DNA of 33,478 bases, from the NCBI GenBank assembly GCA_028867135.1, contig JAGWGW010000009.1, positions 1 to 33,478 on the forward strand. The letters are read 5' to 3'. The translations under genes were made by a program, and so were the position numbers. The stretch comes from Microcaldota archaeon. GTDB taxonomy: Archaea; Micrarchaeota; Micrarchaeia; Micrarchaeales; CABMGC01. Shown one piece after another: positions 3,169-25,889 of this stretch (positions are counted from its first letter, which is position 1; each line of letters begins with the position of its first letter). A model generated the notes under the pieces. It ran no database searches. It saw only the letters and a list, made by a program, of their open reading frames with translations, and was not told where the DNA came from.

Positions 3169-3287
3169 TGGCGGGGGCGAGATTTGAACACACGACCTCC
3201 AGATTTCTAAGATCACAGCAAAATGCTCATCACTCATATTGCTTAGCATATGAGTCTGGCGCTCTAACCAGGCTGAGCTACCCCGCC
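3169..3287 (-). tRNA. tRNA-Met (CAU, elongator type) with 44-nt intron
   Basis: On the minus strand the 7-bp acceptor stem GGCGGGG (3287-3281) pairs with CCCCGCC (3176-3170), followed by discriminator A at 3169. The D-stem is GCTC/GAGC. The anticodon stem CCAGA/TCTGG is split by an intron at the canonical 37/38 position (3205-3248). The spliced loop is CTCATAA, giving anticodon CAU. The T-loop is TTCAAAT on a stem with one U-U mismatch. GAGCG followed by an AGGTC variable loop resembles archaeal elongator tRNA-Met. The acceptor is unlike Ile tRNAs, which argues against tRNA-Ile2. CCA is not encoded. A TATA-like element at 3313-3325 lies about 32 bp upstream. Confidence 0.88.
3205..3248 (-). 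other. Archaeal tRNA intron (in tRNA-Met)
   Basis: This 44-nt insertion after position 37 of tRNA-Met is placed so that splicing restores a normal 7-nt anticodon loop. On the 3' side an AAA bulge sits next to the anticodon stem, as expected for a bulge-helix-bulge cut after the second A. The four-base helix opposite the anticodon has one mismatch and the inner helix is poorly paired, so a relaxed motif is likely. The anticodon segment CTCATAT is exactly complementary to ATATGAG inside the intron, giving an alternative hairpin. Confidence 0.75.
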
Positions 3288-3329: not shown

Positions 3330-4205
3330 TCAGAAGAGGCTGAGCGCGACTGCTCCGGCCACCATTATCAGGAATCCGAAGAACTGCATGCCGTTCATCC
3401 TGTCCTTGTATATGAAGTATGAGAGTATGGCGACCACCATCGGGGTCAGGGCTGAGAGCGCGCTTCCGAGCGTGAGATAGTTGGATTTTATTATGATGCT
3501 GAATGCTATGTCTCCGCTGCCGTCGAGGAAGCCTCCAAGCAGCACCAGGGCAATAAGCGACAACGCCAGCTCGCTCCGCCTGAACCTCGGGAGCTTTATC
3601 GCATGGCCCTTTTTCAGCACCGTGGACAGGTACAGGACCGCTATCACCAGCCCCATTATCCTGGATATGACAAGGGGAGTAAATGTATCAGCAGATGAGG
3701 TTATGGAATAGTTCATCAGTATCCAATACGCTGTGAACGAGACGTTTGCGAGAAGCGCTGGTATCAGCCTTTTATTGAGCCTGAGGTCCTCTGTGGTTAT
3801 GACGAAGAGGACGCCGAGGAATATGACCGAGATTCCCACAGCCTCTATTGTTGTGATCTTCTGACCTAGGATTAGAAGTCCAAATGTGACAAGCAGCGCA
3901 GGCTGCACCTCCGACAGCACGTATGCGTTTGTCAGCTGCTCTGTTTCAAGGGACCTGTATATCAGGAAAAACCCTACGAACAGGAACAGGCCTGCGGAAA
4001 CTGCTGTGGCTATGCTGAAGTACGTGACCTTTACTGCGAAATTGCCAAGAGCCATTGTGATGACTATGGGCAGCACTCCCAGCGCTATCATGGTTATGCT
4101 GGGCAGGATGTTGCCCAGTTTGACTGCGAGCCTTTTCGCCACGATGTTGGCGAATGCCCACAGCGCTATGGCAAAGAGCGTTGCAGTAAAGCCTATGTCT
4201 ATCAT
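3330..4205 (-). CDS. EamA/DMT-superfamily transporter
   Basis: This is a 291-residue integral membrane protein with about ten hydrophobic segments in two five-helix halves. The first half starts GFTATLFAIALWAFANIVAK; the second begins near residue 150 and contains SALTPMVVAILSYFIYK. This is the EamA repeat plan of the drug/metabolite transporter superfamily. Members export or import small metabolites, amino acids or nucleotide sugars; the substrate here is unknown. The start at 4205 lies about 26 bp from the centre of a TATA element at 4225-4236 that also fits the divergent tRNA-His gene. The tRNA-Met promoter begins just beyond its stop. Confidence 0.88.
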   Translation of the reverse strand: MIDIGFTATLFAIALWAFANIVAKRLAVKLGNILPSITMIALGVLPIVITMALGNFAVKVTYFSIATAVSAGLFLFVGFFLIYRSLETEQLTNAYVLSEVQPALLVTFGLLILGQKITTIEAVGISVIFLGVLFVITTEDLRLNKRLIPALLANVSFTAYWILMNYSITSSADTFTPLVISRIMGLVIAVLYLSTVLKKGHAIKLPRFRRSELALSLIALVLLGGFLDGSGDIAFSIIIKSNYLTLGSALSALTPMVVAILSYFIYKDRMNGMQFFGFLIMVAGAVALSLF

Positions 4206-21171: not shown

Positions 21172-22605
21172 ATGGTAGAAGGCCCGCGATTGTATAACTC
21201 TCTGACAAGGAGGGAAGAGAAGTTCGTCCCTGCACATGACGATGACGTAAGGTTCTTTGTCTGCGGCCAGACAGTTTATGACGACGCGCACCTTGGCCAC
21301 GCGAAGAGCTATGTGAACTTCGACGTTGTGGTAAGGTGGCTGCGATGCAGGGGCTACAAGGTAAGGTACATACAGAACATAACCGACGTGGATGACAAGA
21401 TAATAGCAAGGGCAAAAGAGAGGGGCGAGGAGCCCGTGGCCCTTGCAAGGCGCTACGAGGAGAGGTTCCTTGAGGACATGGAGAGGATAGGGGTAAGGAA
21501 GAATGTAGACATGTACCCCCGCTCTCACGATTACATAAAGCAGATAGCTGAGCAGATAGGACTTCTAGTGAAAAAAGGGTATGCGTACAGCATAGGCCAG
21601 GACATATATTTTGACGTTGCGAAGTTCAAGGATTATACAAAGCTCTCGGGCATGAAGCTTGAGGAGCTTGAGAAGCACAGGATAGAGGCAAAGGAGGGCA
21701 AGAGGCATGCGTACGATTTCGCATTGTGGAAGGAAGCAAAGGAAGAGGAACCATCCTGGAAGATAGCTGTAGAAGAGAACGGAGTCGAGAAGAAGTTTGT
21801 AGGGAGGCCAGGGTGGCACATAGAGGACACTGCAATGTCGGTATCAATATTCGGGGAGCAGTATGATCTCCATGGGGGCGCAAGGGAGCTGATATTCCCG
21901 CACCACACCAACGAGATAGCCCAGGCAGAGGCTGCGTACGGCAAGAGGCCGTTCGTGAAGTACTGGATACATTCTGGGATATTGAGCGTGAACGGGGAGA
22001 AGATGTCAAAGAGCCTTGGCAACTTCATAACCATAAGGGAGATACTGAAGGATTACAGCTCTGAGACGCTAAGGCTATTCGTATGCTCGACTCAATATGC
22101 GAAGGACATAGACTACAACGAGAGGGCGATGTCCGAGGCGAAGAAGAGGCTTGCGTACATCAACTCGTCGCTGTCCATATTCTACAATGCTAAGGAGTTA
22201 GAGGAGGATAAGGAATCTGATATCGGCCATATCACTGAAGGGCTTTGGAAGGAGTTCAGGGCTGCCATGGATGGCGATTTCAACACGCCGCTTGCATTGT
22301 CTTCGATAATCAGGGCTGTTGAAAAGCTGAGGGCCTATGCGGAGATGAAAGGGGGCGTAGGAAAGCTGGAGAAGGAGCATGCGCTTTCAAGGGTGCTCGA
22401 ATGCGCATCGGTGCTGGGGCTGCTTGAAGACGGGGTTTACAGGAAATCGATTCCGAAAGAGGCCAGCGCATTGATCAAGGAAAGGGAAAGGCTTAGAAGT
22501 GTGAAGGACTTTGGCAAGGCCGATGCCATAAGGACTGAGCTGAAGGCCAAATACAATATAGGTATAGAGGACAGCGAATACGGGACCGTATGGTACTATG
22601 TCTAG
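21172..22605 (+). CDS. cysS: Cysteinyl-tRNA synthetase
   Basis: This 477-residue class I synthetase charges tRNA-Cys. HLGH (40-43) and KMSKS (277-281) form the ATP site. VCGQTVYDDAHLGHAKSYV, NITDVDDKIIARA and FPHHTNEIAQAEA are family blocks. Of the four zinc ligands known in the E. coli enzyme, Cys31, His244 and Glu248 are in place. The Cys expected in GWHIEC is replaced: the sequence here is GWHIEDTAM with Asp220. HHEN is also HHTN. The C-terminal anticodon-binding helical domain (about 350-477) is complete. Its stop shares CTAG with the stop of the convergent downstream gene. Confidence 0.97.
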   Translation: MVEGPRLYNSLTRREEKFVPAHDDDVRFFVCGQTVYDDAHLGHAKSYVNFDVVVRWLRCRGYKVRYIQNITDVDDKIIARAKERGEEPVALARRYEERFLEDMERIGVRKNVDMYPRSHDYIKQIAEQIGLLVKKGYAYSIGQDIYFDVAKFKDYTKLSGMKLEELEKHRIEAKEGKRHAYDFALWKEAKEEEPSWKIAVEENGVEKKFVGRPGWHIEDTAMSVSIFGEQYDLHGGARELIFPHHTNEIAQAEAAYGKRPFVKYWIHSGILSVNGEKMSKSLGNFITIREILKDYSSETLRLFVCSTQYAKDIDYNERAMSEAKKRLAYINSSLSIFYNAKELEEDKESDIGHITEGLWKEFRAAMDGDFNTPLALSSIIRAVEKLRAYAEMKGGVGKLEKEHALSRVLECASVLGLLEDGVYRKSIPKEASALIKERERLRSVKDFGKADAIRTELKAKYNIGIEDSEYGTVWYYV

Positions 22606-23045
22606 GCCTGCTGCGCTGCTGCAGGCTCCTCGCCTTCCTGGATCCTTCTTCCGCCGCGCTTCTGCTGCCTTCCGGTCTTTGCCGTCGCGAACATCACAGC
22701 CAAGTCCTCGTCCTTGCCGTTATCGATCCATGCCTTGATGTATATCGATATGTTCTTGAGGGGCTTTGAATACCTGTCCGTGAACTCGTACATGCCGCCT
22801 TCGTGCTTGAGTATGCCGACGGTCACCCCAAAATCAAGATACCTTTTCCATGTCGCCAGGGGCAGCTCGGGGTTGCAGTCCTTGAGCCTCAGCTGGCCCT
22901 TCTTCTTGACCTCGTACAATGCCCTTGCGAACCTGTATGCCTTCGTCTCGTTCTCGAAGTAAATCTTCGCCACCTCTTTCACGTTAGGATCCTTAAGCTT
23001 CTCCCTGAGCGGCGCATCCTCGTACTCCCAGTACTTTATGGGCAT
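22602..23045 (-). CDS. Conserved-looking hypothetical protein, winged-helix-like
   Basis: This 147-residue protein, starting MPIKYWEYED, is not recognised as a named family. Residues 20-110 alternate helices with a possible winged-helix core (RFARALYEVKKKGQLRL, LPLATWKRYLDFGVTVGILKHEGGMYEFTD), which suggests nucleic-acid binding. The tail is basic then acidic and low in complexity (KTGRQQKRGGRRIQEGEE). ATG 23045 is about 25 bp from TATA-like CTAAATAC, preferable to the in-frame TTG at 23060. The gene ends in CTAG (22602-22605), which also holds the convergent cysS stop. It lies just after the DRG GTPase gene but appears to have its own promoter. Confidence 0.8.
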   Translation of the reverse strand: MPIKYWEYEDAPLREKLKDPNVKEVAKIYFENETKAYRFARALYEVKKKGQLRLKDCNPELPLATWKRYLDFGVTVGILKHEGGMYEFTDRYSKPLKNISIYIKAWIDNGKDEDLAVMFATAKTGRQQKRGGRRIQEGEEPAAAQQA

Positions 23046-23075
23046 TGAATCAACTACCAATCGTATTTAGTTAAT

Positions 23076-24191
23076 TTAAGCTTTATCGTAAATCATCGTT
23101 ATTACGTCGCCGTCGGCTACTTCGTGCTCGGTGCCCACCTTCTGGTTCACGAATTTGGCGCTGGAGCCGGTTATGTTCGCGAATTTCGCGTTTTTCGCAG
23201 TTTTCGAGTTGAGCTTCTTTGCAACATCCATCACTGTAGCGCCTTTCTTCATTATCATAGGCTTCTCGAAATCTGGCTTGCCGTCCCTGGGCTTCAGGTA
23301 CAGGCGCACGAGATCGAGCCTGCTGAATACCTCCGCCTTGAGCTGCTCTATGTTTATGCTTTTGGTCACGCTTATCGGTATCACTGCCATCCCCGTTCTG
23401 CTCCTTATCTCGTTTATGTACTTAGTTAGCGAGGCACCGTCAACCACGTCTATCTTGTTGAGCGCGACTATCCCTTTCATGTAGGTGCAGTTGCCGGCTA
23501 TCACGTCAAGAAGGTCGTCTACGCTTGAGTCCTGCCAGAAGATTATCTCTGCGTTAAATATACCGAACTCCTTGAGTATGTCTATTATCGTTTTCCTGTC
23601 AGGCACCTTGAATTTCCCGCTCTCTATCTTCATGCCGAGCGTATCCTTCCTCTCGAACTTTATGCTGGGAGCTTTCTTGTTCACCCTTATGTTTAGCGCC
23701 TCGAGCTCGTCGATAAGGCTGTAGATGTGGCTTGGCTCCTTCGCGTCTATAAGGAACAGTATCATGTCCGAAACCCTGACGACGCTTATTATCTTCCGCC
23801 CTTCGCCTTTCCCAATGCGAGCGCCGACAATCAGCCCTGGAAGATCAAGGACCTGTATGTTGGCTCCGGAATATCCCATCATGCCGGGAATGACGTCTAT
23901 CGTTGTGAAGGCGTAATCCGCAACCTTGGATTCGACGTCCGTGAGCTTCTTTAGGAGCGATGATTTCCCTGCGTTGGGGAATCCAACAAGCGCGACTGTC
24001 GCATCGCCGGTCTTCTTGACGGAGAAACCTGTGCCTTTCCTTCCGTGCTTCTGCTCCATCTCCTTTCTTATGTTCGCGATCTTGGCCCTGAGCAGCCCGA
24101 GGTGCTTGTTAGTAGCCTTGTTGTATTTTGTCTTTGAGTACTCCTCTTGGAGCTCCTCAAGTTTTTTGCTTAGATGCTCGTTTCCAGCCAT
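23076..24191 (-). CDS. DRG-family (OBG-like) GTPase with TGS domain
   Basis: This 371-residue translation-linked GTPase belongs to the developmentally regulated GTP-binding (DRG/Rbg) group of archaea and eukaryotes. It has an N-terminal helical region (1-55), G1 GFPNAGKS at 70-77, switch I with the TTID threonines near 96-97, G3 DLPG at 116-119, and G4 ALNKID. A DRG-type insertion interrupts the G domain, and a C-terminal TGS domain (about 300-371) ends DGDVITMIYDKA. It probably associates with ribosomes. The ATG is about 25 bp from TATA-like GATATAAG, so the mRNA is likely leaderless. Confidence 0.95.
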   Translation of the reverse strand: MAGNEHLSKKLEELQEEYSKTKYNKATNKHLGLLRAKIANIRKEMEQKHGRKGTGFSVKKTGDATVALVGFPNAGKSSLLKKLTDVESKVADYAFTTIDVIPGMMGYSGANIQVLDLPGLIVGARIGKGEGRKIISVVRVSDMILFLIDAKEPSHIYSLIDELEALNIRVNKKAPSIKFERKDTLGMKIESGKFKVPDRKTIIDILKEFGIFNAEIIFWQDSSVDDLLDVIAGNCTYMKGIVALNKIDVVDGASLTKYINEIRSRTGMAVIPISVTKSINIEQLKAEVFSRLDLVRLYLKPRDGKPDFEKPMIMKKGATVMDVAKKLNSKTAKNAKFANITGSSAKFVNQKVGTEHEVADGDVITMIYDKA

Positions 24192-24245: not shown

Positions 24246-24258
24246 GTTTATATATTTG
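24246..24258 (+). promoter_or_regulatory. Promoter (TATA box) of the 16-residue peptide gene
   Basis: GTTTATATATTTG is a strong archaeal TATA box. Transcription would start near 24278, leaving a leader of about 13 nt with GTGA (24282-24285) a few bases before ATG 24291. The box does not serve the upstream minus-strand DRG gene, which has its own. Confidence 0.6.
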
Positions 24259-24290
24259 ATATCGCAATCATTTACTGCAAAGTGAATCAA

Positions 24291-24341
24291 ATGGCAAAGA
24301 AGAAGGCACATAAGAAGGCGCATAAGAAGAGGAAAAGATAA
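24291..24341 (+). CDS. 16-residue Lys/His/Arg peptide, MAKKKAHKKAHKKRKR
   Basis: A minimal gene of 17 codons including the stop. It encodes only M, A, K, H and R, with a duplicated KKAH unit and about eleven positive charges. It has its own TATA box, a leader with a Shine-Dalgarno-like GTGA and a T-rich terminator directly after it, so it looks like an independent transcription unit, not chance. The composition recalls tiny rRNA-binding ribosomal proteins such as eL41 or bacterial Thx, but it is shorter and has no sequence match that can be claimed. A nucleic-acid-binding role is the natural inference. A non-coding transcript remains possible. Confidence 0.5.
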   Translation: MAKKKAHKKAHKKRKR

Positions 24342-24352
24342 GAGGGATTGAG

Positions 24353-24378
24353 TTTTTTCTTTTTTATCTTTTTCCTTT
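24353..24378 (+). terminator. T-rich archaeal terminator
   Basis: An almost uninterrupted T-tract (three T-runs broken by C or A) begins 11 bp after the stop of the 16-residue peptide gene and ends before the convergent SRP54 stop. Oligo-T on the coding strand is the usual archaeal terminator. Confidence 0.65.
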
Positions 24379-24385
24379 TCATTCT

Positions 24386-25690
24386 TTACATTCCGGGCAT
24401 GAACTTTGAGATGTTTTTCTTCAGGTCACGGTTGTTCTTGAACATCGTCGCGAATTTCTTCATCTTGTTGAAGTCGCTTATCAGTTCTCTGACGTCCTTT
24501 TCTGTTGTGCCGCTGCCTTTTGCTATCCTTGCAATCCTGCTGTGCTCTTTTACCAGCCTGTCGCTATTTCTCTCCTTCCTTGTCATGGAGCTTATTATCG
24601 AGCCGTATTTCTTGAGCTTCGTCTCGCCAGTTTCCAATACGTCCTTAGGTACATCTGACATGCCCATCATGCCGAGTATGTTCTTCATGGGTCCGACGTT
24701 CTGCATGGCCTTGAGCTGCTTGTAGAATGTGTCGAAGCTGAGGTTCTCGATGTCGGCTTCATCTTCCTTTATGTTTGCGCTCTTGACAGCTTCTTGGACC
24801 TTGAGCACGAGGGATTCCAGGTCAGGCATCCCAAGGAGCCTCCCCACGAACTTCTTGGAGTCGTAGGCCTCAAGCGCGTTCAGCTTCTCCCCGGTGCCTA
24901 TGAACGTGATACTCGTTTTAGATGCGGATACCGCACTGAGCGCGCCACCTCCCTTCCCTGAGCCGTCGAGCTTGGTGACTATGACCCCTGTGAGCTTTAT
25001 CCTGTTGTCGAATTCCGTGGCTTGCCTGCCTGCTACCTGCCCTATGTCAGCATTGATGACCAGCATCTTCTCGTCAGGCTTGAACTCGTCATTTATGAGC
25101 TTCAGCTCCTTCGCAAGCTCCGCATCCATCGCGTTCCGCCCTCCAGAATCGCAGATTATGACCTTTCTGCCTTTTAGCTCCTCAAGACCAGCCCGGATGG
25201 TCTTCCTTATGTCCTTCTCGTCCTTCCTGCCGAAGAATGCCACATTTGACTGCTTTGCAAGGGTCTCTAGTTGCTCGAATGCCGCGGGCCTCGATATGTC
25301 GCAGCATATTAGCCCAGCGCTAAGGCCCCTGTCCTGATAGAACTTCGCGAGCTTTGCTGCGGTTGTCGTCTTTCCGGACCCGTATATGCCTACAAGAAGT
25401 ATCCTCTTTGGCACTATCTCGGGAGCGTAGGAATCGCCCATCATCCCGACCAGCTCCTCGTACACCATGTTTGTGATGTAGTCCTTGGGGCTTATTCCGG
25501 ACGGGAGCTTCTCCTTTAGCGCGGCGTCCTCTATCTTCTTGGTAAAGGAGAATACCACATTTATGTCCACATCTGATGATATCAGCGCCTTCTGGAGCTC
25601 CTTTGTGAATTCCTTGATCGACTTCGCATCGATTATGGTAGCTCCGCTAAGCCTTGCGATCGCCTTTCTGAGCCCTTCTCCTAAATCCAT
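24386..25690 (-). CDS. srp54: Signal recognition particle GTPase SRP54
   Basis: This 434-residue SRP54/Ffh targets ribosomes making membrane and secreted proteins to the translocon. It has the N-terminal four-helix bundle (1-90) and the G domain with G1 GIYGSGKT, DISRPAAFEQL, and G4 TKLDGSGKGGGAL. The usual DTAGR of G3 reads DSGGR. The C-terminal methionine-rich M domain (about 295-434) contains MKNILGMMGM and a helix-turn-helix that binds SRP RNA, followed by SRIARIAKGSG. ATG 25690 (MDLGEGLRKAI) fits the family start. A 16-bp palindrome lies 18 bp upstream of it in the leader. No SRP RNA gene was found in the window. Confidence 0.97.
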   Translation of the reverse strand: MDLGEGLRKAIARLSGATIIDAKSIKEFTKELQKALISSDVDINVVFSFTKKIEDAALKEKLPSGISPKDYITNMVYEELVGMMGDSYAPEIVPKRILLVGIYGSGKTTTAAKLAKFYQDRGLSAGLICCDISRPAAFEQLETLAKQSNVAFFGRKDEKDIRKTIRAGLEELKGRKVIICDSGGRNAMDAELAKELKLINDEFKPDEKMLVINADIGQVAGRQATEFDNRIKLTGVIVTKLDGSGKGGGALSAVSASKTSITFIGTGEKLNALEAYDSKKFVGRLLGMPDLESLVLKVQEAVKSANIKEDEADIENLSFDTFYKQLKAMQNVGPMKNILGMMGMSDVPKDVLETGETKLKKYGSIISSMTRKERNSDRLVKEHSRIARIAKGSGTTEKDVRELISDFNKMKKFATMFKNNRDLKKNISKFMPGM

Positions 25691-25707
25691 GCTGAAAACC
25701 AAATTGC

Positions 25708-25781: not shown

Positions 25782-25889
25782 GGGCTCATAGCTCAGCCTG
25801 GTCAGAGCGCCGGTCTTATACTTCAAGTTTTCTTATGGGAACTTGGATATGATAGCCGGATGTCGTGAGTTCAAATCTCACTGGGCCCA
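25782..25889 (+). tRNA. tRNA-Ile (UAU) with 33-nt intron
   Basis: Acceptor GGGCTCA (25782-25788) pairs with TGGGCCC (25882-25888), with discriminator A at 25889. D-stem GCTC/GAGC. Anticodon stem CCGGT (25810-25814)/GCCGG (25855-25859), closing with U-G. T-stem GTGAG/CTCAC with loop TTCAAAT. Removing the intron at 37/38 gives loop CTTATAA and anticodon UAU, which reads AUA. The acceptor resembles archaeal Ile tRNAs. Most archaea read AUA with a CAU tRNA modified by agmatidine. CCA is not encoded. Confidence 0.9.
25821..25853 (+). other. Archaeal tRNA intron with canonical bulge-helix-bulge
   Basis: The inner helix TTCAAG (25822-25827) pairs with CTTGGA (25842-25847). The 5' bulge is TA^C and the 3' bulge AT^A. 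Between them, loop bases CTTA face TATG with one U-U mismatch. Both cuts fall after the second bulge base, the standard rule for the archaeal splicing endonuclease. Confidence 0.85.

Follow-up and report, generated by a model that had tools for sequence, protein, structure and literature searches.

A conserved micro-gene for a lysine-rich peptide between DRG and srp54 in a Micrarchaeota order

The window, the whole 33,478-nucleotide stretch of DNA analyzed here, is contig C2 of a 961 kb genome assembled in 33 contigs. The SRP54 proteins of named Ca. Micrarchaeota MAG relatives are up to 91% identical to that encoded in the window. Between the genes for a DRG-type GTPase and SRP54, both assigned by Pfam domains and synteny, lies a very short gene of its own with the following layout.

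23076..24191, minus strand: DRG-type GTPase gene (Pfam MMR_HSR1, MMR_HSR1_Xtn, and TGS), divergent to the peptide gene.
24247..24254, plus strand: TATA box TTTATATA, a putative archaeal-type promoter recognized by its sequence and kept in a same-genus genome.
24282..24285, plus strand: GTGA, a Shine-Dalgarno-type element 5 nt 5′ of the ATG.
24291..24341, plus strand: ORF encoding the 16-aa peptide MAKKKAHKKAHKKRKR, with ATG at 24291 and stop TAA at 24339-24341; it has orthologs across the order and coding-type substitutions.
24353..24379, plus strand: T-rich tract that, as judged by sequence, probably terminates transcription of the peptide gene in the archaeal manner.
24386..25702, minus strand: srp54 (Pfam SRP54_N, GTPase, and M domain), convergent to the peptide gene.

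The peptide MAKKKAHKKAHKKRKR consists of M, A, K, H, and R only, with 8 K, 2 R, 2 H, and 3 A among its 16 residues. Transcription is expected to start near 24276. Termination is assumed to occur at the T-tract, as in archaea generally, and a search for a bacterial-type terminator hairpin at the peptide gene found none. The TATA element, the GTGA leader, the frame restricted to M, A, K, H, and R, and the T-tract had all been picked out by an earlier sequence-only reading, and each was confirmed in the sequence. An Rfam scan of the whole window returned tRNAs as the only matches, including genes at 25782-25889 (plus strand) and 3169-3287 (minus strand) whose Rfam lengths of 108 and 119 bases make introns possible. 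On the other side of DRG, positions 22602-23060 (minus strand) encode a protein of 148-152 aa that has no Pfam match and a K/R- and Q-rich C terminus in the window. This protein adjoins DRG in other genera as well (G278, L321:603-1050; G289, L322:634-1078), indicating a conserved unknown partner gene.

The gene neighborhood was surveyed in 98 genomes of the order to which the window belongs (families f1 and f2), anchored on SRP54, and the flanks were scanned for short K/R/H-rich ORFs; the genomes surveyed were mostly MAGs. With all placements counted, a counterpart of the peptide was present in 63 of these genomes, which represent 34 of the 48 genera, nearly always at the DRG/srp54 junction, where the sequence-only reading had proposed to look for it. 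Eight more members of the order, sampled via DRG, carry the gene, as do several MAGs in a GTDB scan. In the same-genus genome G001, the TATA element, GTGAATCAA, the ATG, and the open frame (MAKKKKAKRKAHKKGKKKR) are all kept at ~77% identity, with a 3-nt insertion and an altered peptide C terminus relative to the window. The other 35 genomes, among them the nearly complete G003, G029, and G062, have no peptide at the locus, which suggests that it is either dispensable or was missed elsewhere in the genome.

The main peptide set comprises 69 peptides from 69 genomes, with a median length of 20 aa and a range of 12-65 aa; G064 carries a 65-aa version. Lysine makes up 49% of the residues, followed by alanine (16%), serine (12%), and arginine (9%), with D+E at 0.2%, L at 0.1%, and no W. 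Together K, R, and H account for ~60%, and the median net charge is +12. The peptides begin with MA in 62 cases and carry two basic residues at the C terminus in 67, and no position beyond the two ends is fixed. Length and residue order drift among relatives while the charge stays constant. The tandem KKAH repeat stressed in the sequence-only reading did not extend to the family, most relatives having KKAK, KKSK, or KKGK. An exact GTGA lies 5-15 nt upstream of the ATG in 50 of the 69 (at −9 in 35 of these), and the remaining relatives mostly have GTGG, GTGT, or GGGA at that site. A TATA-like element is found 25-55 nt upstream of the ATG in most of the 69, and 67 have five or more consecutive T within 60 nt 3′ of the stop.

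Substitutions were compared in eight close pairs with peptides of equal length. Third codon positions take 28 of 48 substitutions, with 16 expected, and of the 37 codons that changed, 19 still specify the same amino acid, compared to 9.1 expected by simulation (P ~6e-4). The basic or nonbasic character is retained in 16 of 18 amino acid replacements, and relatives differ in length by complete codons. Across 650 kb of locus sequence, a scan for comparable ORFs away from the orthologous site yielded two to three chance-like ones. Retention of the frame together with the codon-position bias is thus direct evidence for a coding gene, whatever its expression level.

With regard to INDEPENDENCE and place, the usual arrangement is DRG (−), peptide (+), and srp54 (−). 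The peptide stays by DRG where inserts intervene (G044 and G055) and where DRG and srp54 have separated (G075, G077, G078, and G161). In genus g11, examination of the DRG/srp54 locus found no peptide there, and the peptides of this genus, MAKKMKHKKGKKGKK (G011), MAKKTKHAKGKKGKKGKKR (G033), and MAKKIKHKASKKGKKHR (G134), lie at sites without DRG and srp54, each preceded by GTGAA. The association of the peptide with DRG is therefore common but not obligatory, and retention on the DRG side together with relocation in g11 with its own leader indicates an independent gene rather than a terminator of srp54. The T/C-rich reverse strand just past srp54 might suggest that no protein is made and that the A-rich strand reflects the pyrimidine-rich 3′ end or terminator of the opposite-strand srp54, or else a small RNA. 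However, the frame, start, GTGA leader, and stop survive in-frame length changes with a codon-position bias, the gene persists apart from srp54, and the longest T run of the srp54 strand within the ORF is 4, making a noncoding origin very improbable. Both the srp54-terminator and the small RNA readings were rejected because the frame is kept and the gene relocates. The peptide ORF is conserved and under selection as a reading frame, has a promoter, leader, and terminator layout of its own, and does not depend on srp54. The earlier proposal of a stand-alone protein gene is supported by its conservation between DRG and srp54 across relatives.

Several loci of the survey depart from the usual arrangement. 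In several genomes DRG abuts srp54, with both the spacer and the peptide gone; at L013, L016, L021, L035, L053, L055, L067, and L071, the DRG start lies between a few and some tens of bases from the srp54 stop with no peptide gene present, spacer loss and peptide loss coinciding. Contig C11 of G088 carries two near-identical peptide genes, MAKKGGSKKRVKARSKHR and MAKKGGKKKMVKAKSKHR, with matching promoters (L319:2017-2073 and L320:1480-1536). One is on the DRG side and the other beside srp54; the ~9.5 kb that separate them hold sugar-nucleotide genes, and srp54 is inverted, which looks like a duplication with rearrangement. G031, a genome without the peptide at the DRG/srp54 junction, has on contig C49 (L240, minus strand near 3425) a 42-aa ORF, MAKKSTKRSSKKMEEECCMNCCSCCDCGCCSGRKAKCGCECC, with a lysine-rich start followed by a cysteine-rich, metallothionein-like part. 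In the divergent genus of G070, MSRIRVKKAKNSKRPGRPLKR (L088:1423-1488) adjoins srp54 and has an AT-hook-like RPGRP core, possibly representing an unrelated DNA-binding replacement.

The tendency of the peptide to go with DRG, and not with srp54, when the two separate is what would be expected of a cis-partner of DRG, in which the stalling of ribosomes would be sensed or titrated through translation of the polybasic micro-ORF, expressed from a divergent promoter region shared with DRG. This reading is attractive because yeast Rbg1/Tma46, a eukaryotic DRG relative, eases ribosome passage over Lys/Arg-rich stretches (PMC8629797). Nevertheless, there is no same-strand gene downstream to regulate, the T-tract follows immediately, and the peptide is not beside DRG in genus g11 or outside the order, so we regard such a role as very improbable. 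A leader peptide or uORF was likewise rejected, as the gene is convergent to srp54 and divergent to DRG, with the T-tract right after its stop.

Outside the order, inspection of the DRG flanks in 25 genomes that belong to the class but to other families identified no such ORF beside DRG (0 of 25). A phylum-wide pattern of GTGA, 3-8 nt, MAKK, a short gap, K/R, and a stop matched 50 of 301 genomes, compared to one for the reversed pattern used as a control. Some matches are ordinary gene starts, and others are complete micro-genes with a GTGA leader, often with a TATA-like sequence and a T-tract. The GTGA-led micro-genes encode MAKKKAKKKGKKK (G228 and G186), MAKKKSKKKK (G186), MAKKKTAKSKKKR (G115), the decalysine-like MAKKKKKKKK (G124), MAKKLKKKKGSKKGKKK (G291), MAKKKKGGKKKK (G300), MAKKRRRR (G293), and MAKKKMKSKAKKKVAPKKGKKKR (G160); a further micro-gene, MAKKKATKKKKKK (G103), is without GTGA. 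In some other families of the class the peptides are 8-10 aa long. Their neighbors vary and their sites are unrelated, and shared ancestry with the window gene is beyond the reach of alignment, as low-complexity sequence may arise repeatedly.

Pfam, NCBIfam, PHROGs, and PDB sequence searches with the longer peptides gave no match, such searches being weak for low-complexity sequence, and none of the literature searched describes a peptide of this kind from Micrarchaeota. The sequence-only reading had pointed to eL41 as a comparison in size. Both are small, eL41/eS32 having 25-37 aa, and strongly positively charged, but eL41 retains W, M, and L and a helix rich in Arg in eukaryotes and archaea alike (PMC7005279), and archaeal and eukaryotic PDB chains align with each other. 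Compared to these chains, the 69 peptides have no W, almost no L, and far more lysine than arginine, so the likeness ends with the size class, and membership in eL41 was rejected because the mostly Arg W/M/L helix is missing.

Even without eL41 kinship, a minimal lineage-specific ribosomal or ribosome-associated protein seated in a basic rRNA pocket, in concept like eL41, bS22, mS38, or the Thermoprotei-only aS33/aS34, is the main rival to the coating of nucleic acids. Known eL41 sits in the decoding-center pocket of the small subunit. The strong leader and own promoter would fit such a protein, as would the translation and secretion genes on either side, DRG and srp54, and the invariable DRG-side placement in the order hints at a link to translation and counts against DNA or RNA coating. 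The eL41 profile PF05162 gave no match above cut-off in G000 or 59 relatives, and none at the peptide, which would fit a protein of this kind in these 60 genomes; however, control archaea fell below the cut-off too, indicating that the profile is weak in archaea and that the absence of eL41 is not established. Furthermore, ribosomal micro-proteins have fixed contact residues, whereas order and length (12-65 aa) are free here, hydrophobic and aromatic residues are nearly absent, and absence from the locus in one third of genomes would be unusual for a ribosomal protein. We therefore consider a ribosomal seat unlikely, though well ahead of the other rivals.

A closer parallel is offered by bacterial lysine-rich H1-like proteins, which bind DNA and vary in the repeat number of their tails (PMC2848022, PMC9239181). 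Like chlamydial Hc1/Hc2 and the C-terminal tails of AlgP/PhaF, which are K/A/S/P-rich, disordered, and almost free of acidic residues, the peptides form a K/A-rich low-complexity tail (K 49, A 16, S 12, and R 9%; D+E 0.2%). They also resemble them in having few fixed positions, a length that may drift via gain and loss of repeats, and probably charge-based binding. H1-like proteins differ in being 100-350 aa long, some with a folded N-terminal domain, whereas the archaeal peptide is the tail only, 8-65 aa long (16 in the window) and encoded by its own micro-gene. Hc1/Hc2 and H1 family profiles in Pfam and NCBIfam gave no match for the longest members, composition-bias filters weakening this search, and by composition the peptide may work like the H1-like proteins. 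Archaeal histones of the HMf family occur in the same genomes and likely share the DNA target, but they have a folded domain of ~65-70 aa, and the foldless peptide could at most be a tail supplied in trans.

Polyanions other than nucleic acids were also considered. The H1-like AlgP associates with polyphosphate granules (PMC9239181), a precedent for a counter-ion of polyphosphate, and the decalysine-like peptide of G124 would suit this role or that of a gene-encoded polyamine substitute. Against the latter, 39 of 40 genomes encode deoxyhypusine synthase. This enzyme uses spermidine, so polyamines are probably still needed and polyamine replacement is weakened; matches to the spermidine-synthase profile are mostly weak and uninformative. 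Overall we judge a counter-ion role very doubtful.

Taken together, the product of the monocistronic gene is probably a short polycation, disordered and bound to nucleic acids by charge alone, like a detached histone-H1 tail or a mini-protamine. The near absence of hydrophobic residues, the free length and order, and the constant charge make folding or position-specific contacts unlikely and binding to a polyanion possible; a length that varies while charge and K+R+H content hold is the signature of charge-based, unstructured binding. The K/A-rich composition with almost no acidic residues is likewise consistent with the RNA- or DNA-binding function suggested by the sequence-only reading. DNA and RNA are the abundant polyanions in such cells, and histones were found in all 60 genomes tested, which favors a coating polycation that resembles an H1 tail and most likely targets the chromosome. 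The peptide would lose its Met, Ala at position 2 being favorable, to leave a charge of about +10 to +12 over 15 residues. Made in quantity, it may then neutralize chromosomal phosphate beside the encoded histones or, less likely, bind ribosomal or other RNA; DNA is somewhat favored over RNA.

More tentatively, the class Micrarchaeia may encode in its genes an oligolysine, in places as short as 8-10 residues, that serves as a stand-alone and constitutive component of chromatin or the ribosome, in effect a histone or ribosomal protein tail acting in trans and among the smallest known. Gene callers miss genes so short and trypsin destroys lysine-rich products, so a whole archaeal class may make an abundant polycation that has gone unseen. 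A peptide that coats DNA would represent a histone-tail function detached from its histone, and one seated in the ribosome would count as a new, minimal ribosomal protein of a reduced, host-dependent lineage.
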